A stretch of DNA of 64,000 nt. Origin: a virus. This document shows, in pieces, positions 1,656 to 63,988 of this stretch. Below the pieces are notes generated by a model, which had not been told where the DNA came from, did not search any database, and worked only from the letters and a program-made list of their open reading frames with translations. Position 1 is the stretch's first letter; the number at the start of each line of letters is the position of its first letter. Position numbers and translations under genes: made by a program. The stretch is taken from IMG/VR virus record IMGVR_UViG_3300033146_000850, positions 62,001 to 126,000 of that record; one strand, written 5' to 3'.

Positions 1656-4076
1656 ATGTCAAATATAAATTTAATTGCAACAAATTTTGAAGATATTAAA
1701 AAGACAATTATAAATAAATATAAAAATGACCCAGATAGTCCATTTTTAGACTATGATTTTCAAGGTAGTGCTTTAAATTATCTAATAGATATACTATCTT
1801 ATGCTACAATGTATAATAACTATTATAGTTCAGTTGCTATTAATGAATTATATTTACCATATGCTCAAAAAAATAAAAACATATACGCACTTGCAAACTC
1901 TTTGGGTTATTTACCTAGAAGACCATCAAGTTCAATCGCATATATTAGACCAGAATTACCAGAAATATATAATCCTGATTTAACTAAAGATATTGTTATA
2001 CCTGTTTATACTAAATTAAAATCTCAAAAAGGATTGAACTATATTTTAATGGAAGAAATACGATTCAGATATAATTTAGCAACAAATAAATGGTGTACTG
2101 TAAAAAATAACATTTTTGAACCTGATGATTCCCCATATTATTATAAAATTAAACAGGGTCAATTCCAACAAGTGACATTTTTACCAACACAGCAACCATT
2201 ACAACGGGTATTTATAGATAAATTAAACATTGATAATGCTCACGATTCAATATTAGTTCAAGATACCACAAATTATGAATATTGGACACCATTTTATGAT
2301 ATTTCAGATTTTAATCTTGATATATCTCACGATAATATATTTAATAATAATGTTACAGTAGAAGAACTCAAAAATGAAATAATTATCGATGATTTATGGG
2401 ATAATTTTATATTAAATTTAAATTCAGCAAAAACATTTTTTTTAAGTGGTGATGAAGCTGGAACATATATTAATTTTGGTGACGGCACGCTAGGTGCTAT
2501 ACCTGAAAACCAAATGGATATATTATATATATTGACAGAGGGTGAAAATGGTAACGGTGATACTATATTTGATTTTAGTGGTGTTGTAGATTACTCCAAA
2601 ACTGATGGTAGTGTTGGAACTATAAACCTTAAAAATGTAAATGCAATAATACAACATAATACATCATCAACAGGTGGAAGTAAAGCAGAAACAGCTGAAT
2701 CAGTAAGACGTTTAGCTCCATCTTTTAATAATACACAGAATAGAGAGGTTACCGAAACTGATTATGAGGCATTTTTAATGCAACAAAACTCGGTTCAATT
2801 GAATAATGTTAAGTGTATAGGTGGTGAAAAATTAAAACCTATAAAAATGGGAGCGATTGGAATTTGTGCAAGCAAAACTACCGCTAATAATGATATCAAG
2901 GCATCTTTATTAACAGATACAGAAAAAGAACTGCTACGTTTTATATTAAAAAATCAAAACATAGTCTCAATAAATCCAATATTTATACCACCCGAATTTG
3001 TCCGAATAAATATTGATACTACTATATATTATAATCCAATTCTATATGAAGATTATAGGGTATTTCAATCCGCTGATTCCGCAATTAAAACATATTTCTC
3101 AATGATTCAAGGGTTTAAAAAATACTTTAAATCTTCAAATTTAATATCTGTATTTGATAAGTTGCCAGAAATAGACCATAATTTAACAACTGCTGACCTT
3201 GAATATATTAAACTGATTAAAAAAGAAAATATTCAAGAGTATATGTATATTAATTTTGGTAATAATAACCCATTAATGAAAAATAGTATAACGAAAACAA
3301 AAACATCTGAATATTTCTTGAAAATATTCAATAATAATACATTCTACGATTGGACTGAATACGACAAAATCAATAACCAATCAGGAATATTCATCAAACC
3401 TGATGGTGTTAGCTCTTGGGACTTTTCTAAATTTCAACACTCCTCAATCACAAATAAAAGTAAAATACATAAGATATTTTTATATGATTTAGTAGAGGAA
3501 TATACTGATAATTCAAATGTTGGTAATCTATATCTTGTTGAAAAAATGCCTCACAAATTAAAAGCTGTCAGGATAAACAATAATAATGATTTTCCATACT
3601 TTTTTAAATATGAAGATGTTCAAGAAACAGGTAAACGCAAATTAATAGGTGAAGTACAATATAATACTGGGTTAATTAGATTATATTTAGATAATCTATC
3701 TTTTAGATATCTTAAAAATAATAAAAAAAGTAGAAGAATTGCAATTGAAACAGTTAAAAATGAAAAATTTGTTGTTACTAACACCGGAACTGAAAAAATC
3801 ATTACATATACAGATATAGATAATAAAAACGATGCATATAGTGATTATGATGATATATTTTTCAATGAATATCCTTTTGATAGTGTTAGTAATCTACCTT
3901 GGCACGAATCCCCAACACCAACAATTTTTGAACCAAATACCAGAACTGTTACTGATGAGTTCTTTTTAGAGTTCGGTTTTGATACTGTAAGGGAAGATTT
4001 TCAAAGTCAAGGTAATATGATTTTAACACTCGGTGATTGGGTTGTTAAAAAAATTAAAGAGGTTAATAAAAAATGA
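1656..4076 (+). CDS. gp6: baseplate wedge protein gp6 (baseplate J-like)
   Basis: 806 residues (T4 gp6 has 660). The N-terminus carries the family signature DYDFQGSALNYLIDILSY (residues 32-49), followed by the typical NELYLPYA segment and a LGYLPRRPSS stretch, as in T4 gp6 and cyanophage homologues. gp6 forms the inner ring of the baseplate wedge and holds neighbouring wedges together; it relates to P2 gpJ. AGAGGG is the ribosome binding site and the stop overlaps the next start (ATGA, 4 bp), so the two wedge genes are probably translationally coupled. The extra length is in the C-terminal half, where I see no named domain. Confidence 0.9.
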   Translation: MSNINLIATNFEDIKKTIINKYKNDPDSPFLDYDFQGSALNYLIDILSYATMYNNYYSSVAINELYLPYAQKNKNIYALANSLGYLPRRPSSSIAYIRPELPEIYNPDLTKDIVIPVYTKLKSQKGLNYILMEEIRFRYNLATNKWCTVKNNIFEPDDSPYYYKIKQGQFQQVTFLPTQQPLQRVFIDKLNIDNAHDSILVQDTTNYEYWTPFYDISDFNLDISHDNIFNNNVTVEELKNEIIIDDLWDNFILNLNSAKTFFLSGDEAGTYINFGDGTLGAIPENQMDILYILTEGENGNGDTIFDFSGVVDYSKTDGSVGTINLKNVNAIIQHNTSSTGGSKAETAESVRRLAPSFNNTQNREVTETDYEAFLMQQNSVQLNNVKCIGGEKLKPIKMGAIGICASKTTANNDIKASLLTDTEKELLRFILKNQNIVSINPIFIPPEFVRINIDTTIYYNPILYEDYRVFQSADSAIKTYFSMIQGFKKYFKSSNLISVFDKLPEIDHNLTTADLEYIKLIKKENIQEYMYINFGNNNPLMKNSITKTKTSEYFLKIFNNNTFYDWTEYDKINNQSGIFIKPDGVSSWDFSKFQHSSITNKSKIHKIFLYDLVEEYTDNSNVGNLYLVEKMPHKLKAVRINNNNDFPYFFKYEDVQETGKRKLIGEVQYNTGLIRLYLDNLSFRYLKNNKKSRRIAIETVKNEKFVVTNTGTEKIITYTDIDNKNDAYSDYDDIFFNEYPFDSVSNLPWHESPTPTIFEPNTRTVTDEFFLEFGFDTVREDFQSQGNMILTLGDWVVKKIKEVNKK

Positions 4077-5293
4077 TAACCAATTCTATTGTTAATAAAA
4101 AATATCTAAGTATTATGGTTGATAGATTCTTCTCTAGATATCAACACGAAGAACAACCTCAATTTGTAAATTTCGTAAAACAATGGTTTAAATATGCCGA
4201 AGAATCTTATATTGATGAAGATGGGTCCACTAAATTTTCATTCTGGAGGACTTTAAGTAATATAGAGGATTTTATAGACATAGATAAAGTGCCAAATGAA
4301 TTGTTAAAGTATTTTATGGAACATTATGCTAATAATTTTAGTAATATTATTGAAAATATTCCATTTTTTGTGGAATGGGATATTGATTCTTGGGGTAATA
4401 GACATAGAGTTAAAGATTCGAATGGTAATATTATATATAGATACGATAATATTAGAATGTTTTTAAAAACATCTAGGAAATTTTTTCTATCTAAGGGTAG
4501 CTACTATTCTTTTATGTATCTTTTTAAATTGTTTGGAGGTTCATTGGAAATTATTCCACTAGATAGAGATATTATTAGAACTAGTGACCCTAGACACTTG
4601 TTAAGTGCTCCAAACCCTAAAACAAATAGAATGAGCCACGTTCACGGAATAGACCCAGACCCTTATGACCCAAATCGTAAAACTATTAAAGTTAATAGTA
4701 TAGGTGGAATTATCCCAATTAGAGATTGGTGGTATACTTTCTATTCTTATAAAATAATAACAGATTTGAGTGAGGAGTTTTACAAACCTATCGTGTTGGA
4801 AATATGTCATCCAGCAGGTATGAAATGTACTTGGAAAGAAAAAATAGATACAAGTAAATTGGATGGTTGGGGATATAATTCCTGGGGTAATATTAACGAA
4901 AACGATAAAAACTCCTGGGGTAATTTACTTGGAATATCTGAAAATCAACAAGTGTCATTAAGTACTACTTTTATTAAATTTAATAACACCAGCCCTAATT
5001 TAATGACTAACTATCGTGAAATCGAAATTAGAAATATTGGAGAACAACCATTAGAAATATATAACATCTCATCATCGGATAATTTAAACTTTACATTGAT
5101 ATTCGATGGGATAGATGCTGGACACACTCCAATAGTATCTATTCCTCTCATAATTAACTTTGGTGAGACGAAAACCTTTGCGGTAAGGTTTAACCCTAAG
5201 TCGATAGGTTTTAAAGCCTCTACCATCGTTATTGACTCAAATAGTGAAATTAATAATATTAAAAATATTGAAATAGAGGGATATTGTGTTTAA
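4073..5293 (+). CDS. baseplate wedge-associated protein with C-terminal ASH/HYDIN-like Ig domain
   Basis: 406 residues, overlapping gp6 by 4 bp. The centre contains FFLSKGSYYSFMYLFKLFGG (residues 137-156), resembling the KGTKNS-type motif found in gp7-neighbourhood or tail protein I-like baseplate proteins of large myophages. A Trp/Gly/Asn-rich linker (about 265-283) leads to a C-terminal domain (about 290-406) with the pattern of ASH/HYDIN Ig-like domains: IRNIGEQPLEI, GETKTFAVRFNPKSIG and a closing IEIEGYCV. Family knowledge: ASH domains are beta-sandwich binding modules common in cilia and in some bacterial surface proteins. Role inferred from position: baseplate component, perhaps an exposed decoration. 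Its stop overlaps the stop of the convergent lipoprotein gene. Confidence 0.65.
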   Translation: MITNSIVNKKYLSIMVDRFFSRYQHEEQPQFVNFVKQWFKYAEESYIDEDGSTKFSFWRTLSNIEDFIDIDKVPNELLKYFMEHYANNFSNIIENIPFFVEWDIDSWGNRHRVKDSNGNIIYRYDNIRMFLKTSRKFFLSKGSYYSFMYLFKLFGGSLEIIPLDRDIIRTSDPRHLLSAPNPKTNRMSHVHGIDPDPYDPNRKTIKVNSIGGIIPIRDWWYTFYSYKIITDLSEEFYKPIVLEICHPAGMKCTWKEKIDTSKLDGWGYNSWGNINENDKNSWGNLLGISENQQVSLSTTFIKFNNTSPNLMTNYREIEIRNIGEQPLEIYNISSSDNLNFTLIFDGIDAGHTPIVSIPLIINFGETKTFAVRFNPKSIGFKASTIVIDSNSEINNIKNIEIEGYCV

Positions 5294-6132
5294 TAAACAT
5301 TTCTAACACATATTATTTGGTGCAACTCTTCTTGATTTTCTACTACCAATTCCCCATCTAAACCATCACCATTAATTACATTGATGTAATTTAATGCTGT
5401 TCCAGGCATAACATCTACATTATAAACCCAATATGACATTATAAAACCAGGTATTTTTGATAGTTCTACCAATGGTGGAAACATTGTAGCTGGGTTTTGA
5501 TATTTTGTATTTATAATAGTTCTCCAGTCTGTTAATTTTGGCACTCTCCAAGTTCCAACCATCTCATTACACCTCATATAGTTCCTACCATATGTGAACA
5601 TTTTCGAAGTTGGGTTTACTGCCCATTCTAATTTATTTCTTTTATCCGTATATCTATCACCATACATATCACTACCACTATATTCGTATATACTATTACA
5701 TATTGTAGAGTTACCATAATGAATACAATCTAAATGGTCATATCTACAGGTGTCATTCGGAAAACACTCTTGTCCATCGTGACCATAATTATCAAATAAA
5801 TCACCATCAGATAAATCACCATCAGATAATTCACCATCAGATAATTCATCGTTATCAATTAATTCATCATCAGACACCTCATCATCAATTAATTCTTCAT
5901 CAGATAATTCCTCATTATCAATTGTTTCCACATCATTAGAAATATTTTCACTATCAACAAGTACATCAACATCAATCAACTCATTAACATCAGATATTTC
6001 TTCATTGTCAACATCAATAATTGTAGATGAATCAGGAGCTTCAATATAAACTATTTTCTCTATAGTTCGCCCTTCCTCTCCACAGGAAAATAACAACATC
6101 ATTAAAATCATCACCATAACATAAATTCTCAT
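5290..6132 (-). CDS. lipoprotein with acidic repeat linker and DUF1566-like domain (moron)
   Basis: 280 residues from ATG 6132, chosen because GGAG sits 6 bases upstream and it gives a clean lipoprotein signal (LLFSC lipobox near residue 17); the longer ORF start adds residues before the signal. The mature part has a long Asp/Glu/Ser linker with repeated DELSDGEL-like units, a short Cys-rich segment, then a DUF1566/Lcl-type region containing WRVPKLTDW, typical of bacterial outer-membrane or surface lipoproteins. It is the only minus-strand gene in a 28 kb plus-strand virion block and has its own sigma70-type promoter. This suggests a host-derived moron expressed independently, perhaps altering the host surface (lysogenic-conversion-like or superinfection exclusion; inference). 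Confidence 0.75.
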   Translation of the reverse strand: MRIYVMVMILMMLLFSCGEEGRTIEKIVYIEAPDSSTIIDVDNEEISDVNELIDVDVLVDSENISNDVETIDNEELSDEELIDDEVSDDELIDNDELSDGELSDGDLSDGDLFDNYGHDGQECFPNDTCRYDHLDCIHYGNSTICNSIYEYSGSDMYGDRYTDKRNKLEWAVNPTSKMFTYGRNYMRCNEMVGTWRVPKLTDWRTIINTKYQNPATMFPPLVELSKIPGFIMSYWVYNVDVMPGTALNYINVINGDGLDGELVVENQEELHQIICVRNVY

Positions 6133-29079: not shown

Positions 29080-31116
29080 ATGTACGAAGAATTAAAAAAG
29101 AAAATTTTGAAAATTAAAGGTAGATATTGGTATAAAGAATTAACTAATGATGAAATTAATATTATAATAAAAGAAACATCATTTTTACCTAATAAATATG
29201 ATATAAAAATAAGAAGAATATATTTTATACATAATTTAACAAGTTTACAAATATGCCCCACCTGTGGTAAAGAAATACAATGGGATAGAAAACATCAAAA
29301 ATTTGGAAAACGATGTAGTAAAGAATGTTATATCGTTCCTGATGGTGTAACTATTGACCAAATAAACAATGAAACCAACTTTTTACCATCAGATATATCC
29401 TTTAAAAATAGGGTAGGATATTATAGATTAAAAATTAAAAAATATAAAAAATGTTTAATATGTGATAAAGCGATTGATTTTGATAATAAACATTTAACAT
29501 TTCCCGATTACTGCTCATCTAAGTGTAGAAAACAAGGACAAAAATATATTAATGAAAAAAGGAAGGATTCTTGGTCTAATAAAAACAAAGAAGAGATATC
29601 TATAATCAACAATAAAAGAAAAAATACTGTAAATGAAAAATATGGAGTTGATAATGTGTTTCAAAATGAAGATATTAAGGTACGCTCTAATGAGAAACGA
29701 CAAAAAACTAATAATGAAAAATATGGGGTTAATTATTACATAATATCTGATGATTTTAAAGAAAAAAAGAAAAAAACATTACTTGAGACTGTTGGGGTAG
29801 ATAACCCTATGAAATTCGATGACTATAAAAATAATCAACAAGACTCATTATATGTGAATTATAATGTTAGAAATCCTATGAAATCTGAAACAATTAAACA
29901 GCGAGTAAAAGACACGAATAATGAAAAATATGGAGTTGATAATGTATTTCAAAATGATGATATTAAAGAAAAAATAAAGAAAACAGTGAATGAAAAATAT
30001 AATGTTGATTATTATTCACAAAGTAATGAATACAAAGAAAAAATAAAGAAAACACAACGTGAATCATACTGGGACTCTTTTATAACATTATTGAAACAAA
30101 AAAGAATCGAACCATTATTTGATAAACACGAATATATAACGTATAATTACGGTGAAAACAATAAAAAATATAAATGTTTAAAATGTGATAAATCATTTGA
30201 AACCGTTGAATTAAAAGTTCAAAAGATATATTGTAAAAAATGTGCAACAAGAATGTCACAATCAGAGCGAGAAATATCAGAATGGATAAAAGAAGAAAAT
30301 AAAAACATCAATATATTAACCAATAAATTTTTCAAAAATAGTGACAATAAACGTTATGAGCTTGACATATATTTACCAGATTTTAATATAGGGATAGAAT
30401 ATCACGGATTATATTGGCATAGTGAATTATATAAAGATAAAAACTATCATAAAAATAAATATGAATTTTTTAAAGAACAAGGAATTGAAGTTATTCAAAT
30501 ATTTGAAAATGAATGGGTTCTCAATCTAGAAATAGTCAAATCAATTATACGAACAAAAATAGGCGTGGTTAAACGAAAATTGTATGGTCGTCAATGTACT
30601 ATTCGTAGCATTGAAAACGATGAATATAAGCAATTTTGTGAGTTAAATCATTTACAAGGGTATGGAATAGCAAAAGTAAGACTGGGATTATATTATAATG
30701 ATGAATTAGTTCAAATAATGAGTTTTTCAACCCCTAGGTTCAATAAATCATATGATTGGGAAAACATCAGAACCTGTTCTAAAATCAACACAATAATAAC
30801 TGGTGGATTTTCCAAATTATTAAAACATTTCAAGAAAAACTATAAAGGTTCAATAATAAGTTATGTAGATGCTCGATATTTTAATGGTAAAGGTTATATT
30901 AACAATGGTTTTGAAAAAATAGGACATAGTAATCCAAACTTTTTTTATTTTAAAACACAATCTATAATATTAGAGAATAGAATGAAGTTTCAAAAACATA
31001 AATTAAAAGATATTCTAAATAACTACAATGAGAATGTAACATCTAATGTTAATATGTTGAATAATGATTATTTAAGAATATTTGATGCTGGGAATATAAT
31101 ATTAAAACATAAATAA
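29080..31116 (+). CDS. homing endonuclease-like protein (zinc-finger repeats, Vsr/PD-(D/E)xK-type nuclease)
   Basis: 678 residues. Order: an N-terminal helical part; a zinc-finger pair (CPTCGKEI ... RCSKEC and CLICDKAI ... YCSSKC, residues about 60-150); four or five repeats of the type NEKYGVDNVFQNxDIKEK (about 190-325); a third zinc ribbon (CLKCDKSF ... CKKC); then a nuclease core with YELDIYLPDFNIGIEYHGLYWH (D, E and H residues, about 427-448) and a C-terminal domain. This build is known in phage Hef-like/DUF7487 homing endonucleases. It brings its own promoter, stands directly behind the most conserved gene, and looks like a recent free-standing mobile gene. No intron boundaries are seen in gp23. 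Confidence 0.8.
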   Translation: MYEELKKKILKIKGRYWYKELTNDEINIIIKETSFLPNKYDIKIRRIYFIHNLTSLQICPTCGKEIQWDRKHQKFGKRCSKECYIVPDGVTIDQINNETNFLPSDISFKNRVGYYRLKIKKYKKCLICDKAIDFDNKHLTFPDYCSSKCRKQGQKYINEKRKDSWSNKNKEEISIINNKRKNTVNEKYGVDNVFQNEDIKVRSNEKRQKTNNEKYGVNYYIISDDFKEKKKKTLLETVGVDNPMKFDDYKNNQQDSLYVNYNVRNPMKSETIKQRVKDTNNEKYGVDNVFQNDDIKEKIKKTVNEKYNVDYYSQSNEYKEKIKKTQRESYWDSFITLLKQKRIEPLFDKHEYITYNYGENNKKYKCLKCDKSFETVELKVQKIYCKKCATRMSQSEREISEWIKEENKNINILTNKFFKNSDNKRYELDIYLPDFNIGIEYHGLYWHSELYKDKNYHKNKYEFFKEQGIEVIQIFENEWVLNLEIVKSIIRTKIGVVKRKLYGRQCTIRSIENDEYKQFCELNHLQGYGIAKVRLGLYYNDELVQIMSFSTPRFNKSYDWENIRTCSKINTIITGGFSKLLKHFKKNYKGSIISYVDARYFNGKGYINNGFEKIGHSNPNFFYFKTQSIILENRMKFQKHKLKDILNNYNENVTSNVNMLNNDYLRIFDAGNIILKHK

Positions 31117-34718: not shown

Positions 34719-35087
34719 TTATACCCCTAAATTTAAATTATTAGTTGATTCATTAACAGTTATTTTAATATCCATTTTGCCATCTTTCAAATCTTCTTTT
34801 TTATAAACACAAAGTATATTATTCATACCCAACAACATTAACTCTTCATTGTTAACATTGGCATTATGTCCTCTATGTGTTTGGAATACAACAATATCCC
34901 CTTTATTCAATCCTAAATTATTATATATCCCAGTCCTTTTATTTAAAACACCTTTTCCAACCCCTACAATCACACCTAAAGCTTTTTGATTAGGAATAGG
35001 TAATATTATACCACTATCCGTTTTTTCATCTGAATCAATCCTTTTAATCAATACCAAATCACCAATAGGTTTTAACTCAACACTCAT
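34719..35087 (-). CDS. GroES-like co-chaperonin (gp31 analogue)
   Basis: 122 residues; ribosome binding site GGAGG. GroES pattern: LKPIGDLVLIKRI (residues 5-17), TDSGIILP, GVIVGVGKG, LNKGDIVVFQ and a closing NNILCVYKKED. T4 gp31 replaces host GroES so that GroEL can fold the large capsid protein; this one may do the same for gp23. It carries a C-terminal extension of about 20 residues beyond the core. No GroEL homologue is in the window. Confidence 0.85.
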   Translation of the reverse strand: MSVELKPIGDLVLIKRIDSDEKTDSGIILPIPNQKALGVIVGVGKGVLNKRTGIYNNLGLNKGDIVVFQTHRGHNANVNNEELMLLGMNNILCVYKKEDLKDGKMDIKITVNESTNNLNLGV

Positions 35088-35098
35088 ATAAACCTCCT

Positions 35099-36226
35099 TT
35101 ATATTTCAAAATTTTGCATAATTTCAACCTTGACACTATTGTATACATTTATAAATGAATTATAAAATTCATCTTTTTCATCATCATCAATATTTATTCC
35201 ATATATATAATCTTTTATCAACCATTCTAGGTTCAATTCAACATTATTAACACCACTATCTGAATGCACAAGTTCAAGGTCGTCATCATCAGTATTTGCT
35301 ACGTCAATATCACTATTAAAAAATTCAAAATTATTTATAATTGTAACTTTATTTCCAAATTTTTCTAATCTTAATTTAAAATTATATATTTCATCTTCTA
35401 TATCATCAACATTAAAAATTATTTTATAATATTTATAATACCCCAAATCACATTCTAAATGTGTATATTTTGAAATATCATCAAGACATTTTATATTGAT
35501 AGTTTCATACATTACATATTCATTACGATGAAATGTAAAAATATCATTTTCCAAAGTGTAGAAGCCAAGTTCTAAACCAGCATCACTCCAAGCTAATTGG
35601 TATGGAACACCTGGATATAGCACTTTAGAATCTTCTTGTGGTAAATGATAATGTCCAGATACTATTTTTTTTAAATTTGGAAATCTACTAATAATATCTT
35701 TTTTTGTTAGTGCTGTTTCATTACTATTTTCAGCAAATCTTGTATGCATATATCCAAACATATCGAAATGACCAAAAACATATTCTATGTTTTCAATATT
35801 TTCAATTGATTCAAACAATTCAACATATTCTTCTTTGGTATTTCTCCAATTGAAAAATGCATAATTATCGATTACTAAATAATCAACAAAAGAAATACTG
35901 TTAATGTTATCTCTATTCCGAAATACAACATCCACAGAATCTAATTTATAACTATTTTTATGATATAATACATGATTACCATTTATCATTATGATTTCAA
36001 CATTATATTCTGATATTTTTGATAACAAATCTAATGCATAATCCATAACATTAATATTTATTGTTTGTTTATTTGTAAATATATCACCTAGAAATATAAC
36101 ATATCTAACTTCGTTTTTATTTAAATAATCAAAAACTTGTTCAAAAAATAAATCCTGATAAATTAAAAAATTACTATCACCATTTTTCATATCTAAATGT
36201 ATATCACTGATAATTAAATCTTTCAT
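35099..36226 (-). CDS. gp47: recombination nuclease subunit gp47 (SbcD/Mre11-like)
   Basis: 375 residues (T4: 339). Metallophosphoesterase motifs: SDIHLD (D8, H10), FLGDIF (D48), INGNHVLYH (N84, H85), FGHFDMFG and SGHYHLPQ. With gp46 (an SMC-like ATPase, not in this window) it resects DNA ends for recombination-dependent replication. An acidic stretch (NTDDDDLELV) lies near the C-terminus. It abuts gp55 with no gap. Confidence 0.92.
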   Translation of the reverse strand: MKDLIISDIHLDMKNGDSNFLIYQDLFFEQVFDYLNKNEVRYVIFLGDIFTNKQTININVMDYALDLLSKISEYNVEIIMINGNHVLYHKNSYKLDSVDVVFRNRDNINSISFVDYLVIDNYAFFNWRNTKEEYVELFESIENIENIEYVFGHFDMFGYMHTRFAENSNETALTKKDIISRFPNLKKIVSGHYHLPQEDSKVLYPGVPYQLAWSDAGLELGFYTLENDIFTFHRNEYVMYETINIKCLDDISKYTHLECDLGYYKYYKIIFNVDDIEDEIYNFKLRLEKFGNKVTIINNFEFFNSDIDVANTDDDDLELVHSDSGVNNVELNLEWLIKDYIYGINIDDDEKDEFYNSFINVYNSVKVEIMQNFEI

Positions 36227-36676
36227 TTATACATCTCCAATGTTAATATATCCACCATTCTTTTTTCTAGATTTCTCACGTCTATTTTCTTCAATATCTT
36301 TTTTGATTTGATTGTTAAAAGGTTTATTAGCTTTATGGTAGGCATCCTCAACCATATCTAATTTAAAATTACTATAGCTATATTTTTTCTTCAAATAATA
36401 TCTAAATGCATTAATAACAATACTTGTAAAATAAGCAAATGCGTTAGCTCTATTTGTATCAAATTTATGTAAAGATTTTAAACAAGCAATAACAGCATCC
36501 GTTCTCATATCCTCCTTGTCAGCTAACGAATAATTATTAAAAAATTTAGAATGTGTATTTTTTTCAGCTAATTTAAATATCATATCTCCTAAATTATCAG
36601 AAACCTTTTTTGTTTCATTAAATTTGCAAATTTCATTATGAAATTCCTGTTTGTCTATATAATATTTTGTTACCAT
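36227..36676 (-). CDS. gp55: late sigma factor gp55
   Basis: 149 residues from ATG 36676, four bases after GGAGG; an upstream ATG (36688) overlaps that site. T4 gp55 (185 aa) pattern: YYIDKQEFHNEICKF at the start, KEDMRTDAVIACLKSLHKFD (about residues 54-73) and NAFAYFTSIVINAFRYYLKK (about 77-96), the sigma region 2-like core that reads the late -10 sequence. It directs host RNA polymerase to late promoters in concert with the sliding clamp. The TATAAATA and CTAAATA motifs found in this window are its likely targets. Confidence 0.88.
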   Translation of the reverse strand: MVTKYYIDKQEFHNEICKFNETKKVSDNLGDMIFKLAEKNTHSKFFNNYSLADKEDMRTDAVIACLKSLHKFDTNRANAFAYFTSIVINAFRYYLKKKYSYSNFKLDMVEDAYHKANKPFNNQIKKDIEENRREKSRKKNGGYINIGDV

Positions 36677-36715
36677 TTTGACCTCCATTGTTGAATTAAT
36701 AACTTTTATCTATTT

Positions 36716-36744
36716 TATATATCACACACAAACAAAAAAGTTAA
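36716..36744 (-). promoter_or_regulatory. possible promoter of the gp55-gp47 unit
   Basis: On the minus strand TTAACT, 17 bp spacer ending TGTGA, TATATA. The -35 is weaker than in the other promoters, but the spacing and TGn are conserved. Confidence 0.45.
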
Positions 36745-36783
36745 AATTTTTATTAAATATCAATATCTAAAACTTTTATAAAC

Positions 36784-36914
36784 CATTTCTATTGGATAAA
36801 ATACGTCTAAATGGAACATAAATGCCCACCATTGAATAAAAATACATTTTGAATGCTATGTTATATGTTAATATGTTTTCATTGCTTAAAATTAAAATTT
36901 GGACGTTTTTAAAA
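36784..36914 (+). repeat. direct repeat A, copy 1 (131 bp)
   Basis: Matches 37556-37686 with 7 differences in 131 positions by eye. Contains CCATT/AATGG inverted elements and no credible ORF. With repeat B it forms a module present twice in the divergent region between gp55 and the ligase gene. Confidence 0.9.
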
Positions 36915-37013
36915 AATGTCGTATCCTATTCTTCGCCCGCACGCACACACACCCGCTCCCGCACGCACACACGCACGTTTATACTGGTATATTCATGCTG
37001 GGGGTTTACCCCC

Positions 37014-37043
37014 GTGACACCGTTAGGTGTCACTTGTTTTTTA
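37014..37043 (+). terminator. hairpin with T-run (rho-independent terminator)
   Basis: Perfect 8-bp stem GTGACACC / GGTGTCAC, loop GTTA, then TTGTTTTTTA. Directly before it is another hairpin GGGGG-TTTA-CCCCC (37000-37013). It implies a short rightward transcript from the GC-rich tract, or a terminator carried in by the insert. Confidence 0.65.
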
Positions 37044-37140
37044 TAAAAAATGATTTTATGACGAGCGAAGCGAGGAATAAAATTATACTTATAAAAAACA
37101 ACTATTGGTAATACACGATTTTACAAAGAATAAGAGAAAT

Positions 37141-37250
37141 AAGAAAAGAATAAGAAAAGAAAATATATAAAAGAAAAGAATAAGAAAAGAAAATATATAA
37201 AAGAAAAGAATAAGAAAAGAAAATATATAAAAGAAAAGAATAAGAAAATA
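37141..37250 (+). repeat. 30-bp purine-rich tandem repeats
   Basis: Three perfect 30-bp copies at 37141, 37171 and 37201 (AAGAAAAGAATAAGAAAAGA plus AAATATATAA) and a partial fourth at 37231, followed by degenerate purine sequence to about 37305. All purines apart from the TATATAA part are on the plus strand. Confidence 0.93.
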
Positions 37251-37344
37251 AAGAAAAAAAAAGTGAAGAATAAGAAAGAAAAGAAAAAAAAAGTAAAAAA
37301 AAAGAAAAATTCTGGAGGCTCAAACTTTTGAACGGTTTTAAAAA

Positions 37345-37418
37345 TATCCACTGGTAACAAATATATCCATTGTAACAAATGTATCCACTGGTAACAATTA
37401 TATCCATTGTAACAAATG
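37345..37418 (+). repeat. 37-bp iteron-like tandem repeat
   Basis: Two copies, starting at 37345 and 37382, each containing TATCCACTGGTAACAA and TATCCATTGTAACAAATG, i.e. four alternating GGTAACAA/TGTAACAA sites. One related site (TTGGTAACAATTATATCC) is found before repeat B copy 2. Spaced sites like these are typical of protein-binding iterons. Confidence 0.7.
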
Positions 37419-37423
37419 TACCT

Positions 37424-37518
37424 GACTAATAATTGACAAGGTTGATGTTGTCTCACTTCGTTCAACAAATCAAACCTATCAATTATGTGCCGTAAGAACG
37501 GCACGCTATGGTGGGTTT
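37424..37518 (+). repeat. direct repeat B, copy 1 (95 bp) with two hairpins
   Basis: Identical over all 95 bp to 37713-37807. It contains a long imperfect hairpin (TTGACAAGGTTGATGTTGT against AACAAATCAAACCTATCAA, loop CTCACTTCGTTC, 37433-37482) and a perfect 7-bp hairpin GTGCCGT-AAGA-ACGGCAC (37487-37504). It looks like a bacterial REP-type or structured RNA element. The frames through it were rejected as genes. Confidence 0.93.
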
Positions 37519-37555
37519 TCAAATTGTAATTAATATATCATCAACATTTTAAAAT

Positions 37556-37686
37556 CATTTCCATTGGATAAAATATATCTAAATGGAACATAAATGCCCA
37601 CCATTGAATGAAAATACATTTTGAATGTTAAGTTATATGTTAATATGTTTTCATTGTTTAAAATTAAAATTTGGACGTTTTTAAAA
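37556..37686 (+). repeat. direct repeat A, copy 2 (131 bp)
   Basis: Second copy of repeat A, about 95% identical to 36784-36914, followed after one iteron-like site by repeat B copy 2. Confidence 0.9.
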
Positions 37687-37712
37687 TATATACATTGGTA
37701 ACAATTATATCC

Positions 37713-37807
37713 GACTAATAATTGACAAGGTTGATGTTGTCTCACTTCGTTCAACAAATCAAACCTATCAATTATGTGCCGTAAGAACGGCACGCTATGG
37801 TGGGTTT
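37713..37807 (+). repeat. direct repeat B, copy 2 (95 bp)
   Basis: Perfect second copy of repeat B. The 7-bp hairpin lies at 37776-37793. It ends 32 bp upstream of the ligase promoter. Confidence 0.93.
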
Positions 37808-37839
37808 GTAAATTATTTTAAATATTTAACATATAAAAT

Positions 37840-37868
37840 TTGACTTTTTAAAAATAATATGATATATT
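37840..37868 (+). promoter_or_regulatory. sigma70-type promoter for ligA, extended -10
   Basis: TTGACT (37840-37845), 17 bp spacer ending ATGA, TATATT (37863-37868), 38 bp upstream of the ligase start. Confidence 0.7.
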
Positions 37869-37906
37869 AACTCGTAAAATGTTTTTATTTCATGATGGAG
37901 TGACAA

Positions 37907-39955
37907 ATGGTTAATATTAAAAATGTTGATATTATAAAAAGATTAGAATTAGACATTATAAAACATAGATATTTATATTACACTGGAAATCCTAAAATTT
38001 CAGATTATGAATATGATAAACTTGAATCTGAACTAAAAAAAATTGATAAAAACAATAGATTATTTGATGAAATTGGATTTAATCAATCTGAATCGACTTT
38101 TAATAAAATTAAACACACGGTTAAAATGCCATCACAAGGAAAAGTATATTCAAAATATGAATTTTTAAATGTTTTTGATTCAAATGTAAAAATATTAGTT
38201 GGAAGTTATAAAATAGATGGTTTTGCTATAACATTAAAATATCAATACAATAAGATTATAAATAAATACATTTTAAAATATGGTGCAACACGTGGTAATG
38301 GAGTTGAAGGTGAAGATATTACCGAAAATATTAAAATGATTAAAGATATTCCATTAACTTTAGATGTTGATAGTAAGATTGCATCTGATGAGATTGAAAT
38401 TCGTGGTGAAATATACATGAAGAAATCTATTTTTAATAAAGTTGCAAAGAAAGCTATGATGGAAGAAGGTAAAGAATATAAAACACCTAGAAATTTATCA
38501 GCTGGGTCTGCTAGAAACAAGAACCCACTTGTAACTAAAGAGCGTGAGTTGAATTTCTTTTGTTATGACGTTTTAGGATTATACATGTATAATTATTCTG
38601 ATAGATTATCCTATATTTCTAGTGTAAATATTCCTATTGTTGAGTTTAGTAAAATTGATATTAATGATTCTGAAAAATATTATCAAAAATGTGTAGTTGA
38701 AAGGGATTTGTTAGATTATGATATTGACGGTGTATGTTATAGGATTGATGATGATAGATTGTATAAATCAGTTGGAAGCACTTCACACCATCCTAAAGGG
38801 TCTATAGCCTGGAAATTTAAACCTGAAAGTGAAATAACAACTTTAAAAAATATTGAATGGCAAGTATCTAGAACTAGACAAATTAATGCGGTAGCAATAA
38901 TTAACCCTGTTGAATTAGGAGGTGCCGAGATTAATAGGGTATCGTTACATAATATTTCAATAATGAAAAAGTTAAATATTAATATTGGGGATGATGTTAT
39001 GGTGTCTAGAAGAGGAGATGTTATCCCTCATATTGAATCATTAGTCACTAAAAGAAATGATAAAGATATCGATATTCCAAAAATTTGTCCATCTTGTGGT
39101 GAGTCAACCGAGATAATTATTAATCCTAAAAGTGGAATTGAGAAACTTTTTTGTACAAATGAAAATTGTACGGCTGTTAAAATATCCGAGTTTGAACATT
39201 TTGTTGACATTATGAATATGAAAGGATTGGCAGTTTCAACACTAACAAAAATGTTAAAATCTAACCTTATTACAGATTTTTCTGATTTGTTCAAATTAAA
39301 TATTGAAATGTTAATGACTATTGATGGTATTAAAAAGAAAAGTGCTGAAAAATTATTTAATACTATACAATTCAATCGTAAAAAAACATTAGATGTGTTT
39401 TTAAGCTCTTTAGGTGTTAATTCACTAGGTAGGTCTGTTTCTGAATTAGTTGCCCAAAATTTTGATAATTTAAATGAATTACTAGGTGATTATGGGTATG
39501 TGTTTAATAAATTATGTTCTATTGAAGGTATTTCTGAAATAATTGCTAATAATATTATTAATGGAATTAACTCAAAAATACAAGTTATTAATAATTTACT
39601 ATTAGAAGTAGAAATAATAACAATGGATGATATAAAAGGTTGTCTTGATGGTAAATTGTTTTGTATATCTGGGTCTATGACGAATGGTAAGAACGCTATT
39701 AAGAATTTAATAATTAAATATGGTGGTGTAGTTAAATCATCAGTTGTTAAAAATTTAAATTTTTTAATTGCTGGTACAGGTTCAGGTAGTAAATCAACAA
39801 AAGCAGAATCGTTAAATATACCAATAATAAGTGAATCTGATTTTATGTCTATGATTGGAGTTAATAATATTGAAAAATTAGAAACAATTGAAAAATTAGA
39901 AACAATTAAAAAAAAAGATAATAATATTGATAAATGGTTAAAAAGTGAGGTGTGA
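37907..39955 (+). CDS. ligA: NAD-dependent DNA ligase
   Basis: 682 residues, the length of bacterial LigA. Order: an N-terminal Ia-like NAD-binding region (HRYLYYTGNPKISDYEYDKL, residues 20-39); adenylation domain with K102 in SYKIDGFA; GATRGNGVEGEDITEN; EIRGEIYM; PRNLSAGSAR; IAWKFKPES; an OB-fold; a zinc finger (CPSCGES ... CTNENC); a helix-hairpin-helix region; and a C-terminal BRCT domain containing LFCISGSMTNGKN. It seals nicks using NAD+, whereas T4 uses an ATP-dependent ligase. Two small VEKLETI-like repeats sit near the end. Ribosome binding site GGAGTG. Confidence 0.96.
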   Translation: MVNIKNVDIIKRLELDIIKHRYLYYTGNPKISDYEYDKLESELKKIDKNNRLFDEIGFNQSESTFNKIKHTVKMPSQGKVYSKYEFLNVFDSNVKILVGSYKIDGFAITLKYQYNKIINKYILKYGATRGNGVEGEDITENIKMIKDIPLTLDVDSKIASDEIEIRGEIYMKKSIFNKVAKKAMMEEGKEYKTPRNLSAGSARNKNPLVTKERELNFFCYDVLGLYMYNYSDRLSYISSVNIPIVEFSKIDINDSEKYYQKCVVERDLLDYDIDGVCYRIDDDRLYKSVGSTSHHPKGSIAWKFKPESEITTLKNIEWQVSRTRQINAVAIINPVELGGAEINRVSLHNISIMKKLNINIGDDVMVSRRGDVIPHIESLVTKRNDKDIDIPKICPSCGESTEIIINPKSGIEKLFCTNENCTAVKISEFEHFVDIMNMKGLAVSTLTKMLKSNLITDFSDLFKLNIEMLMTIDGIKKKSAEKLFNTIQFNRKKTLDVFLSSLGVNSLGRSVSELVAQNFDNLNELLGDYGYVFNKLCSIEGISEIIANNIINGINSKIQVINNLLLEVEIITMDDIKGCLDGKLFCISGSMTNGKNAIKNLIIKYGGVVKSSVVKNLNFLIAGTGSGSKSTKAESLNIPIISESDFMSMIGVNNIEKLETIEKLETIKKKDNNIDKWLKSEV

Positions 39956-43983: not shown

Positions 43984-44070
43984 GGCTCTATGGTGGAATA
44001 GGTAGACACAAGGGACTTAAAATCCCTCGACTTTGATGTCATCCGAGTTCGATTCTCGGTGGAGCCACCA
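43984..44070 (+). tRNA. tRNA-Leu (UAA)
   Basis: Complete class II cloverleaf. Acceptor GGCTCTA pairs with TGGAGCC; anticodon stem AGGGA/TCCCT with loop CTTAAAA, giving anticodon TAA; long variable arm GAC-TTTGAT-GTC; T arm CCGAG-TTCGATT-CTCGG; encoded CCA at the end. It reads TTA, the main leucine codon of this AT-rich phage. Confidence 0.96.
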
Positions 44071-44093: not shown

Positions 44094-45965
44094 ATGTGTC
44101 TAAACAAGTCTACATTGAGATTATTTCACGCTATACAATCGTATAGCAAAGATTATGAAGGTGATTATCAATATAATCAATATATAACAAAGGGTTTATT
44201 TATAGACCCTAATATTGATGAATATGATGGTTTAATATCTGATATTGAGAATACTATTTTTCTTAATAGTGAAAAATTAAATAAAACTTTTTTTGAGTCT
44301 TGGAGTTATATTAAAAATACATCCAGTGAAGAATTAGCTATTCGTCAGATTATTCATTATATCACAGCGTATAGTTTTAAATCATTTGATGATTACAATG
44401 AGGATATAATATATATACCTAAAAAACAGTTGAATATACCATTGTTACGTGATAATTTAGAGTTAATATATATAAAAGCATTAACTAAAGATGAAATTAG
44501 AAAAAATGTTGTTATGTTGGCTTCTAGTGTATCTTTGAGTGATTCTGTTATTAATGATTTATACACTATAATAACTGAGAATAACTATGGAGTTGAAATC
44601 ATTGATGAAATAAGTAATCACGAATTGAGTTCTAGATTATGTGACTTTTATAATATTGTTCCATCTAATCCAACTGAATATTTGAGATTTTTAATATATA
44701 AAATTACTGGTGAAACATTATTAATAAAAAACAAACATCTATTTGATAGAATAGTTGAATCAAAGGTTAACGTGTCTGAATTATTAGACATATATGAGCC
44801 ACCTAGTGATTTATCATCAATATTTCGTAGGTATAAACCTTTATTTTTAGCTATGAGACAAATAGCTAGTGATAAAGGGTATTTTAATAGATTACGTAAG
44901 GATTCTGATAAAACCGCTACAACTATAACAACAAGTTATCTCAATAATGTTACTAATTTATTACATAAGGGTGAAATATCTATTTCAAAGCTTAAAGATA
45001 GTTTAGAAAAAAATAACATTTTTAAAAAGATAAAATTAGCTAATAGTTTAAGATATAGATTACATTCTTCGGATACATCTAACATATTACATATTATTAG
45101 AAATGGTAAGGGTTGGGTTAGAGAATTTGATTGGGATAATGTTGATAGAGAACAAACCATAGAAATTTTGAATACTGTTGTTAATTCCATAGTTGATGAT
45201 ATAAAATTAAAGGTTAAAAATAAGAATATATATATTCCCAGAAATGTCAAATATGCAATTCCATCATCTGAAAAACAATTTATTGGTAATTATCCATTAG
45301 GTACTAGAATTGGGTCAAATAGGAATACTATTTTTGGAATATATTGGGAAAATAATAGTAATGTTGTCGATTTAGATTTATCTTTAATTTCTAAAAGTGG
45401 TAAAGTTGGATGGGATGGAACAACGTCTGGTGATATTATGTTTTCAGGTGATATTGTTAATGCTGAGGATGGTGCAACAGAATCAATATACGTTAAGAAA
45501 TTTATAGATGAGCCTAAGTTAATATTTGTCAATGATTATACATCAGTTGCATCAAAAAATAATGTCGTTAACTCTAGAGTATTTTTAGGATTTGATTCTA
45601 ACATAAAGAATTTACCGCTTGGATATACTTTAAATCCTAATAATGTAATTGCAACTGCTAATATAGACATAACAACTAAAAGTAATGTTATAGGTATTAT
45701 TGAACCTAAAATTGGTAATAAAGGTATATATTATTATTTTTATAAAACATCTGTTAATAATAATATAACATCTGAATATGATGATTTATCATTTAAAGTT
45801 AGGGATAGTATTTTAAGACAATGTAAATCTATGATGTGGTTAAATGAATTATTAAAAAAATCAGGGGCAAATATACTTAGAGAAAGACCTGATGATGGGG
45901 TTGAATACGTGGATTTATCACCTATTAATTTAAAAAAAGATTCTATTTTAAAGTTGATTATTTGA
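44094..45965 (+). CDS. uncharacterised 623-aa protein with TerD-like C-terminal region
   Basis: Start ATG 44094 after GAGG, 23 bp behind tRNA-Leu. N-terminal two thirds helical and unknown. Around residues 415-475 the segments LGTRIGSNRNTIFGIYWEN, VDLDLSLISKSGKVGWDG, IMFSGDIVNAEDGATESIYV resemble the TerD-like calcium-binding fold used by bacterial MXAN_6230/SCO0854-type proteins (D-L-D-L-S, H/F-S-G-D-I, G-A-x-E). Such proteins belong to tellurite/stress systems in bacteria. In the phage it might bind metal or membrane partners; role unknown. The tRNA-like element begins directly at its stop codon. Confidence 0.6.
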   Translation: MCLNKSTLRLFHAIQSYSKDYEGDYQYNQYITKGLFIDPNIDEYDGLISDIENTIFLNSEKLNKTFFESWSYIKNTSSEELAIRQIIHYITAYSFKSFDDYNEDIIYIPKKQLNIPLLRDNLELIYIKALTKDEIRKNVVMLASSVSLSDSVINDLYTIITENNYGVEIIDEISNHELSSRLCDFYNIVPSNPTEYLRFLIYKITGETLLIKNKHLFDRIVESKVNVSELLDIYEPPSDLSSIFRRYKPLFLAMRQIASDKGYFNRLRKDSDKTATTITTSYLNNVTNLLHKGEISISKLKDSLEKNNIFKKIKLANSLRYRLHSSDTSNILHIIRNGKGWVREFDWDNVDREQTIEILNTVVNSIVDDIKLKVKNKNIYIPRNVKYAIPSSEKQFIGNYPLGTRIGSNRNTIFGIYWENNSNVVDLDLSLISKSGKVGWDGTTSGDIMFSGDIVNAEDGATESIYVKKFIDEPKLIFVNDYTSVASKNNVVNSRVFLGFDSNIKNLPLGYTLNPNNVIATANIDITTKSNVIGIIEPKIGNKGIYYYFYKTSVNNNITSEYDDLSFKVRDSILRQCKSMMWLNELLKKSGANILRERPDDGVEYVDLSPINLKKDSILKLII

Positions 45966-46034
45966 TGTGGTTTTATGGTGGAGTTTTTAACTTATTGTTG
46001 AAAACTGTGGGTTCGATTCCCACCACCACATCCA
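45966..46034 (+). tRNA. tRNA-like element lacking a D arm, possible anticodon UAU
   Basis: A 69-nt sequence right after the previous stop. TGTGGTT can pair with CACCACA (6 of 7), followed by T and CCA. The T arm GTGGG-TTCGATT-CCCAC is canonical. The anticodon stem TTTAA/TTGAA carries loop CTTATTG, so the anticodon would be TAT (Ile, AUA codons, common here). Only 13 nt lie between acceptor and anticodon stems, too few for a normal D arm. Its 5' end shares GTGG-T-TATGGTGGA with tRNA-Leu, suggesting descent by duplication and decay or a noncanonical tRNA. Confidence 0.5.
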
Positions 46035-63346: not shown

Positions 63347-63988
63347 ATGATAGACGATTATGAAGATATTGTTGATGAATCTGAAATATCATTAATTCAA
63401 GAGCGTGATAGATTAGAGCGTGAAGAGATAAAACAAAAAAAAATTCGTGAAGTAGAAGATAAGATTAGGCAAATACAAGAAGAAGAGATGAAACAAGAGG
63501 CTGAAATTGAGGCGATGGATGATTTTTTCAACTTGTTGGCTAAGGAAGATTTAAATTTTACACTAACACGTAGAAAACCTGATTTAGAAGATATTACTCA
63601 TGATATTACAGGTAAAGAACTAACATATGATAGAAACCATATTAGAAAACCTGCTGATGTTAAATTAGCATTGACCCCTGAACACGTTAAAGAATTGAAT
63701 TTTTGTTTGAATAATCCTGTTTATACTATAAAAAATTATGTCAAAATTATTAATCAGGATAAAGGTCTTATGGATTTTAATACTTATGATTATCAATCAG
63801 AGTTTATTAAGGAATGCTTGAGACATAAAAGAGTGCTTTCGTGCTGGCCCAGACAAAGTGGTAAATGTGTGGAGTATTCAACTAAAATTAAATATATTAA
63901 AATTCCAACAAGTTTTTTTAAAAAATTAATATATAAATTTATTAATTTTGTTTCTCCAACATTTTTTGATATTGTTATTATTGATTAA
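63347..63988 (+). CDS. gp17: terminase large subunit gp17, N-extein plus split-intein N-fragment
   Basis: 213 residues ending at a TAA, only a third of T4 gp17 (610). Residues 1-60 are a charged coil; 110-173 are the start of the packaging ATPase: VYTIKNYVKII, MDFNTYDYQSEFIKECLRH (adenine-binding Q-motif) and VLSCWPRQSGK, the Walker A motif. After the invariant Lys (173) the expected Thr/Ser is replaced by Cys174 and 39 residues unlike any terminase, opening CVEYSTKIKYIKI, then stop. This is the layout of a natural split intein at the Walker A site, as known for TerL of some metagenomic phages (AceL-TerL). The rest of gp17 should lie beyond the window. Confidence 0.85.
   Translation: MIDDYEDIVDESEISLIQERDRLEREEIKQKKIREVEDKIRQIQEEEMKQEAEIEAMDDFFNLLAKEDLNFTLTRRKPDLEDITHDITGKELTYDRNHIRKPADVKLALTPEHVKELNFCLNNPVYTIKNYVKIINQDKGLMDFNTYDYQSEFIKECLRHKRVLSCWPRQSGKCVEYSTKIKYIKIPTSFFKKLIYKFINFVSPTFFDIVIID
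63866..63985 (+). other. putative short split-intein N-fragment (40 residues)
   Basis: Begins with Cys directly after the Walker A G-K and shows the block A pattern C-V-x-x-S/D-T-x-I at its first eight residues (CVEYSTKI), then a basic amphipathic stretch FFKKLIYKFINF and ends FDIVIID. Normal split inteins have about 100-residue N-fragments; only the atypical class has fragments of a few dozen residues. The C-fragment would start the downstream gene and end in -HN or -GN before a Thr/Ser/Cys extein residue. Confidence 0.7.

Follow-up and report, generated by a model that had tools for sequence, protein, structure and literature searches.

The DNA between the genes for a gp55-like late sigma factor and an NAD-dependent DNA ligase in an AT-rich phage is best read as a cis-acting DNA module rather than as a set of genes, and the whole module, about 1.3 kb in size, is present a second time in inverted orientation. 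We tentatively propose, with a confidence somewhat short of even, that the module combines a replication origin with divergent early control. The window analysed, 64,000 nt in length, comprises bases 62001–126000 of a 126,063-bp virus contig (G000). By its gene matches the phage (27% GC) falls in the T4 superfamily and, judged from its sequence, is a new relative of phage T4.

Repeat units and element C

The first-pass annotation had described a gene-free divergent region at 36690–37906, lying between a leftward gp55 gene and a rightward ligase gene. Both flanks are as described, and nothing gene-like is recognisable between them. No ORF between gp55 and the ligase has a PHROG match, the Rfam covariance models report only a tRNA in the window at gathering cut-offs, and no Rfam match up to E 1 is found in the region of this array (array 1).

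Sequence alignment and repeat counts agree with the annotated organization into two A-iteron-B units (Table 1). For the two copies of the 131-bp repeat A an identity of about 95% had been given; the measured value is 94%, and the similarity stretches to 155 nt at 90%. Repeat B is indeed perfect over its 95 bp, and each copy carries the two hairpins ascribed to it, which abut. The longest exact repeat reaches 18 bp in 200 dinucleotide shuffles of the region against the 95 bp observed, and a chance origin of the repeats is therefore excluded. The iterons that had been claimed are found as five copies of YTG(G)TAACAA in array 1, starting at 37351, 37370, 37388, 37407 and 37695. The four in unit 1 lie 18–19 bp apart and are the tandem, regularly spaced direct repeats that characterize an iteron-type origin. 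Among the scanned proteins flanking the arrays, none matches an initiator family.

Unit 1 contains a further component that had been overlooked: element C, 404 bp long, which separates A from the iterons. It is made up of GC-rich low-complexity DNA, three hairpins and polypurine repeats, and one of the hairpins, followed by a T-run, is the sole terminator-like site found in the region. The arms of the long C hairpin hold T6/A6 in array 1 and T7/A7 in the second array described below, a compensating change of one base per arm.

Table 1. Features of array 1 and its flanking genes (window positions)
Feature	Position	Strand	Remarks
gp47-like SbcD nuclease subunit	35099–36226	−	PHROG 100, E 1.6e-36
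gp55-like late sigma factor	36227–36688	−	PHROG 234, E 1.1e-18; first gene of leftward operon
Leftward outward promoter, TTAACT-N-TGTGATAT	36719–36744	−	consensus match
Repeat A copy 1	36783–36913	+	123/131 identical to copy 2
Element C	36918–37321	+	once per array, in first unit; alignment of both arrays
GC-rich CGCACG/CACACA low-complexity stretch	36933–36977	+	among the most GC-rich 50-bp windows of the 27% GC genome
Hairpin GGGGG-TTTA-CCCCC	37000–37013	+	sequence and fold
Hairpin GTGACACC-GTTA-GGTGTCAC, then T-run	37014–37033	+	intrinsic-terminator-like for rightward transcripts
Long AT hairpin capped by GACGAGCGAAGCGAGGA	37036–37099	+
Polypurine tract, tandem repeats of about 30 bp	37120–37313	+	among the contig's top purine windows
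Four iterons, TATCCAYTG(G)TAACAAWT, unit about 18–19 bp	37342–37418	+	unit 1
Repeat B copy 1	37424–37518	+	long hairpin with GAACGAAGTGAG cap (minus strand), plus abutting second hairpin
Second hairpin of repeat B, GTGCCGT-AAGA-ACGGCAC	37487–37504		within B copy 1
Repeat A copy 2	37555–37685	+	pairs with copy 1
Single iteron TTGGTAACAA	37695–37704	+	unit 2
Repeat B copy 2	37713–37807	+	identical to copy 1, 95 bp
Rightward outward promoter, TTGACT-N-TATGATAT	37840–37865	+	consensus match
NAD-dependent DNA ligase	37907–39955	+	PHROG 3869, E 4.6e-151; first gene of rightward operon

A second, inverted array with outward promoters

Array 2, likewise missed earlier, forms the left end of G000, outside the window. 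It is inverted and keeps the order of array 1, running A-C-iterons-B-A-iteron-B-A-iterons-B, with three B units against two in array 1 and with iterons in every unit of both arrays. Another IMG/VR contig, G001 (34,189 bp), ends in repeat B and shares 114 identical bases with the left end of G000. Because of this overlap G001 very probably continues the same phage population, and we infer that the two contigs join, which would give array 2 its other flank. Both arrays together, over G000 and G001, supply five distinct copies of A, which align over 135 bp without indels, and five distinct copies of B. Such arrays break assemblies; G000 itself ends inside array 2.

A promoter consensus, TTRAY-N-TRTGATAT, was built from sequences enriched upstream of genes and scanned over 160 kb. 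Matches are located at all four outer edges of the arrays (4/4), each facing outward, and none lies inside the arrays; the other matches in the 160 kb are mostly directly upstream of genes. Alignment of the two left edges places in array 2 the same promoter as the leftward one of array 1, save for one base. Both arrays are situated between diverging operons that carry replication, recombination and late-transcription genes. Array 1 is flanked by gp55, gp47 and GroES leftward and by the ligase rightward, and array 2 by gp32, UvsY, UvsW and primase on one side and gp33, gp59, gp46, topoisomerase and DNA polymerase on the other. Of the topoisomerase, the subunit next to gp46 is named from its sequence, and a different subunit was matched in the search.

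In the proposed combination of origin and early control, a phage or host protein would bind the TTG(G)TAACAA iterons and the A repeats, and the hairpin-prone, polypurine DNA of B and C would then open. The edge promoters would fire outward in both directions; the outward transcripts could prime leading strands both ways, and the same transcripts would switch on the flanking replication and late-transcription operons. What the sequence shows is the arrangement of the elements, their repetition in an inverted array, consensus matches for the promoters, the neighbouring genes and a bias switch described below; that a protein binds the module, that its DNA opens, that transcripts prime replication and that an origin is active there is inferred.

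The same promoters could serve a hub for transcription control alone. In that case a phage regulator timing the divergent promoters would act at A and the iterons, the terminator and hairpins of C would insulate, and origin activity would be absent. The promoters at 4/4 edges have been duplicated along with the module, the late-transcription factors gp55 and gp33 are both among the flanking genes, and the terminator-like hairpin in C suits insulation. Nevertheless, a divergent promoter pair does not need as much as 1.3 kb of DNA containing hairpins and polypurine or GC-rich tracts, and the remaining consensus promoters of the phage come without such an array. Control without origin activity is held to be unlikely, though with appreciable weight.

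Strand bias and known systems

GC skew in this phage tracks gene direction. Cumulative GC skew alone was therefore not taken as proof, and the test of bias used third codon positions and allowed for gene strand. The third-position GC skew of plus-strand genes is −0.03 at 58–98.7 kb of the contig and +0.41 to the right of array 1 (Mann-Whitney p 1e-8). In a leading/lagging model that includes gene strand, one switch falls in the interval 93.1–99.9 kb, and the fit at array 1 lies no more than 0.22 scaled log-likelihood units from the optimum. The model's opposite switch comes out at about 58 kb, and a position around 9 kb is allowed equally well. At array 2 gene direction and skew both reverse from G001 to G000, and the two are confounded. 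The bias is compatible with an origin at array 1. It may also reflect early versus late gene class, and a switch that stems from gene class would suit a control hub; against this, the bias of same-strand (plus-strand) structural genes varies with position, differing between 9.6–45 kb and 63–94 kb (GC p 0.011, TA p 6e-6). When the same test was applied to T4 as a control, the result was mainly an effect of gene strand and class, and the known T4 origins were not recovered. The bias near array 1 is hence supportive and not diagnostic, because the control missed the T4 origins.

The first-pass annotation had regarded the region as typical of a replication origin or a control hub. That claim has gained a second copy, outward promoters at every edge, a replication-gene setting and the bias switch near array 1, while the evidence remains circumstantial and the T4 control failed. 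Further findings are counted against an origin. Contigs carrying gp32 from distant relatives have no gene-free stretch of at least 500 bp in the 80 inspected among the matches listed, so that a comparable region is lacking there; and the substitutions in repeat B, considered below, fit RNA pairing on the minus strand.

The T4 origins oriE, oriF and oriG are reported to be close to sites where transcription diverges and composition shifts, and oriE has 12-nt iterons whose role is undefined (PMC3016281). Array 1 resembles oriE in having an iteron cluster near a change of transcription direction and apparently of nucleotide bias in a T4-superfamily phage (PMC3016281). It differs in that the T4 iterons, of 12 nt, come without A, B and C modules or a second copy of the whole origin, whereas here a complete 1.3-kb module stands at two sites. 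The R-loop origins oriF and oriG also place a promoter beside AT-rich DNA, in replication-gene surroundings and with transcription divergence nearby. Those minimal origins, however, span about 100 bp, contain a single middle promoter that depends on MotA and lack repeats, in contrast to an array of 1.2–1.4 kb between two outward promoters. It is possible, though rather doubtful, that this T4-superfamily phage carries a portable origin cassette in duplicate, driven by an initiator and comprising iterons, A sites, capped hairpins and outward promoters. If so, the firing of an origin would coincide, at two loci, with the switching on of the first operons for replication and late control. T4 would differ in this, since no local motif is common to its origins and their sequence rules are still undefined (PMC3016281). 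Two near-identical, self-contained candidate origins would also offer natural copies whose comparison or deletion could show which parts are needed.

The origin of PLE likewise has semi-palindromic iterons, located in noncoding DNA that replication requires (PMC7145576). PLE is, however, an ICP1 phage satellite that brings a RepA_N initiator of its own, and no initiator was found among the scanned flanking proteins here.

Several similar repeat regions lie between the genome modules of Campylobacter group II phages (PMC4546147). Like the present phage, CP21, CP220 and CPt10 are AT-rich and T4-related, with similar repeat regions, some of them inverted, and a varying unit number (PMC4546147). 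Their units differ, being 72–86 bp long in two arms, with up to 18 per arm and some enclosing genes. When the 341-bp A2-B2 stretch was used as a blastn query, the sole match was weak and AT-rich (E 0.1–4), inside an RNase H gene of Campylobacter phages. On this precedent (PMC4546147) the arrays might be a recombination module, the inverted repeat regions allowing the intervening 97 kb to flip, a role suggested for those of the group II phages. The two arrays are near-identical and inverted in a T4-superfamily phage, and the number of units varies (2 and 3), as such a module would have it. Promoters, hairpins and iterons nevertheless keep their order at both places, beyond what recombination alone requires, and no alternative junction was seen in the sequences compared; recombination as the function is very unlikely.

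DNA or RNA, relatives and other genome features

Structured RNAs had been named as an alternative to an origin or control hub. For repeat A this is rejected, since on neither strand do its copies fold more stably than shuffled sequences (z −1.0 to +1.8); the absence of structure as RNA fits a DNA site. An 8-base complementarity between A and B was also set aside as a helix, being marginal (14/300 shuffles). For repeat B the alternative keeps some weight. Its RNA fold is stronger on the minus strand (−32.7 versus −26.3 kcal/mol on the plus strand; minus-strand z −4.6), whereas with DNA parameters the strands are equal. The stem has three G-U pairs, on the minus strand only. Among the five copies there are three substitutions; all 31 minus-strand pairs are kept, and each substitution breaks one plus-strand pair. 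Only three in number, these substitutions give a hint of a minus-strand RNA.

Repeat B, perhaps with C, might accordingly encode small structured RNAs, with B read leftward, that act in trans or as decoys. The minus-strand fold of B, its 31/31 retained pairs with G-U pairs on that strand alone, and the compensating indel pair in the C hairpin all accord with such RNAs. Three substitutions are few, however, and by estimate have a rough one-in-four chance of minus-strand neutrality in the absence of selection. Further, no phage-consensus promoter reads into B, no terminator follows it, Rfam has no match, A is unstructured and the A-B complementarity is marginal. An RNA function is improbable, and the cis-acting DNA module is preferred.

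The loops of the B hairpin (GAACGAAGTGAG, minus strand) and of the long C hairpin (GAGCGAAGCGAG, plus strand) have a GAA turn in common and are distinguished by one pair around it, exchanged from A-T to G-C. The pattern GARCGAAGYGA is confined to the arrays within the 160 kb and is present in every B and C. Of the 14 GC-containing perfect hairpin matches listed for the contig, 8 fall in the two arrays, two of these being overlapping readings of one hairpin. The cap GACGAGCGAAGCGAGGA was considered as a signature of the phage and rejected, as 18 stretches from varied genomes of bacteria and archaea have it, and so does one viral contig that is unrelated. In diverse bacteria the cap recurs in intergenic hairpin-like settings, and the viral contig (L143:5108–5126) carries it on a long AT-rich hairpin as in element C. 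Since this form of the cap is common in intergenic hairpins elsewhere, it points to hairpin stability and not to kinship.

It had been suggested that repeat B be sought in host genomes. None of 84,980 species genomes contains it, as judged by one exact 30-base pattern that would miss diverged copies. A pattern scan of IMG/VR for repeat A found none, exact patterns again missing diverged copies. A match of A to a Lak phage (E 2e-4) was rejected as low-complexity, since it spans 59–61 AT-rich bp and nothing else of the module accompanies it. Matches in the related contigs G002 and G004, which fall within the polypurine and AT-hairpin portion of C or next to it, were not counted as homologues. 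Contigs with capsid proteins 69–77% identical to that of the phage do exist; they end before the locus (G004 about 2 kb short of the array place, G002 and G003 also before it), and no close relative spanning either array locus was found.

Several features elsewhere in the genome were also observed. A GroES-like protein (window 34719–35087) and a full GroEL-like chaperonin (L009:7652–9277) are both phage-encoded. A tRNA-Leu(TAA) lies at window 43984–44070 and a tRNA-Ile(TAT) at 45961–46034, the Rfam gathering threshold reporting only the former. From domain matches, the phage seems rich in inteins. The UvsW-like helicase gene (G000 3028–5406) is interrupted by an intein domain of the Hint/homing-endonuclease type, and a C-5 cytosine DNA methylase (L015:5956–8145) and an IMP dehydrogenase-like protein (L014:11812–13299), both of G001, have intein splicing-domain matches below the Pfam cut-off. 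Near the right end of the contig, the match of a terminase large subunit fragment (window 63347–63988) stops after a Walker-A-like RQSGK and the sequence continues with CVEYSTKIKYI, possibly the start of another intein, although a Pfam scan of the fragment found nothing. A homing endonuclease-like gene (window 29080–31116) lies directly downstream of the major capsid gene, and its relative in G001 matches the same stretches of related contigs.
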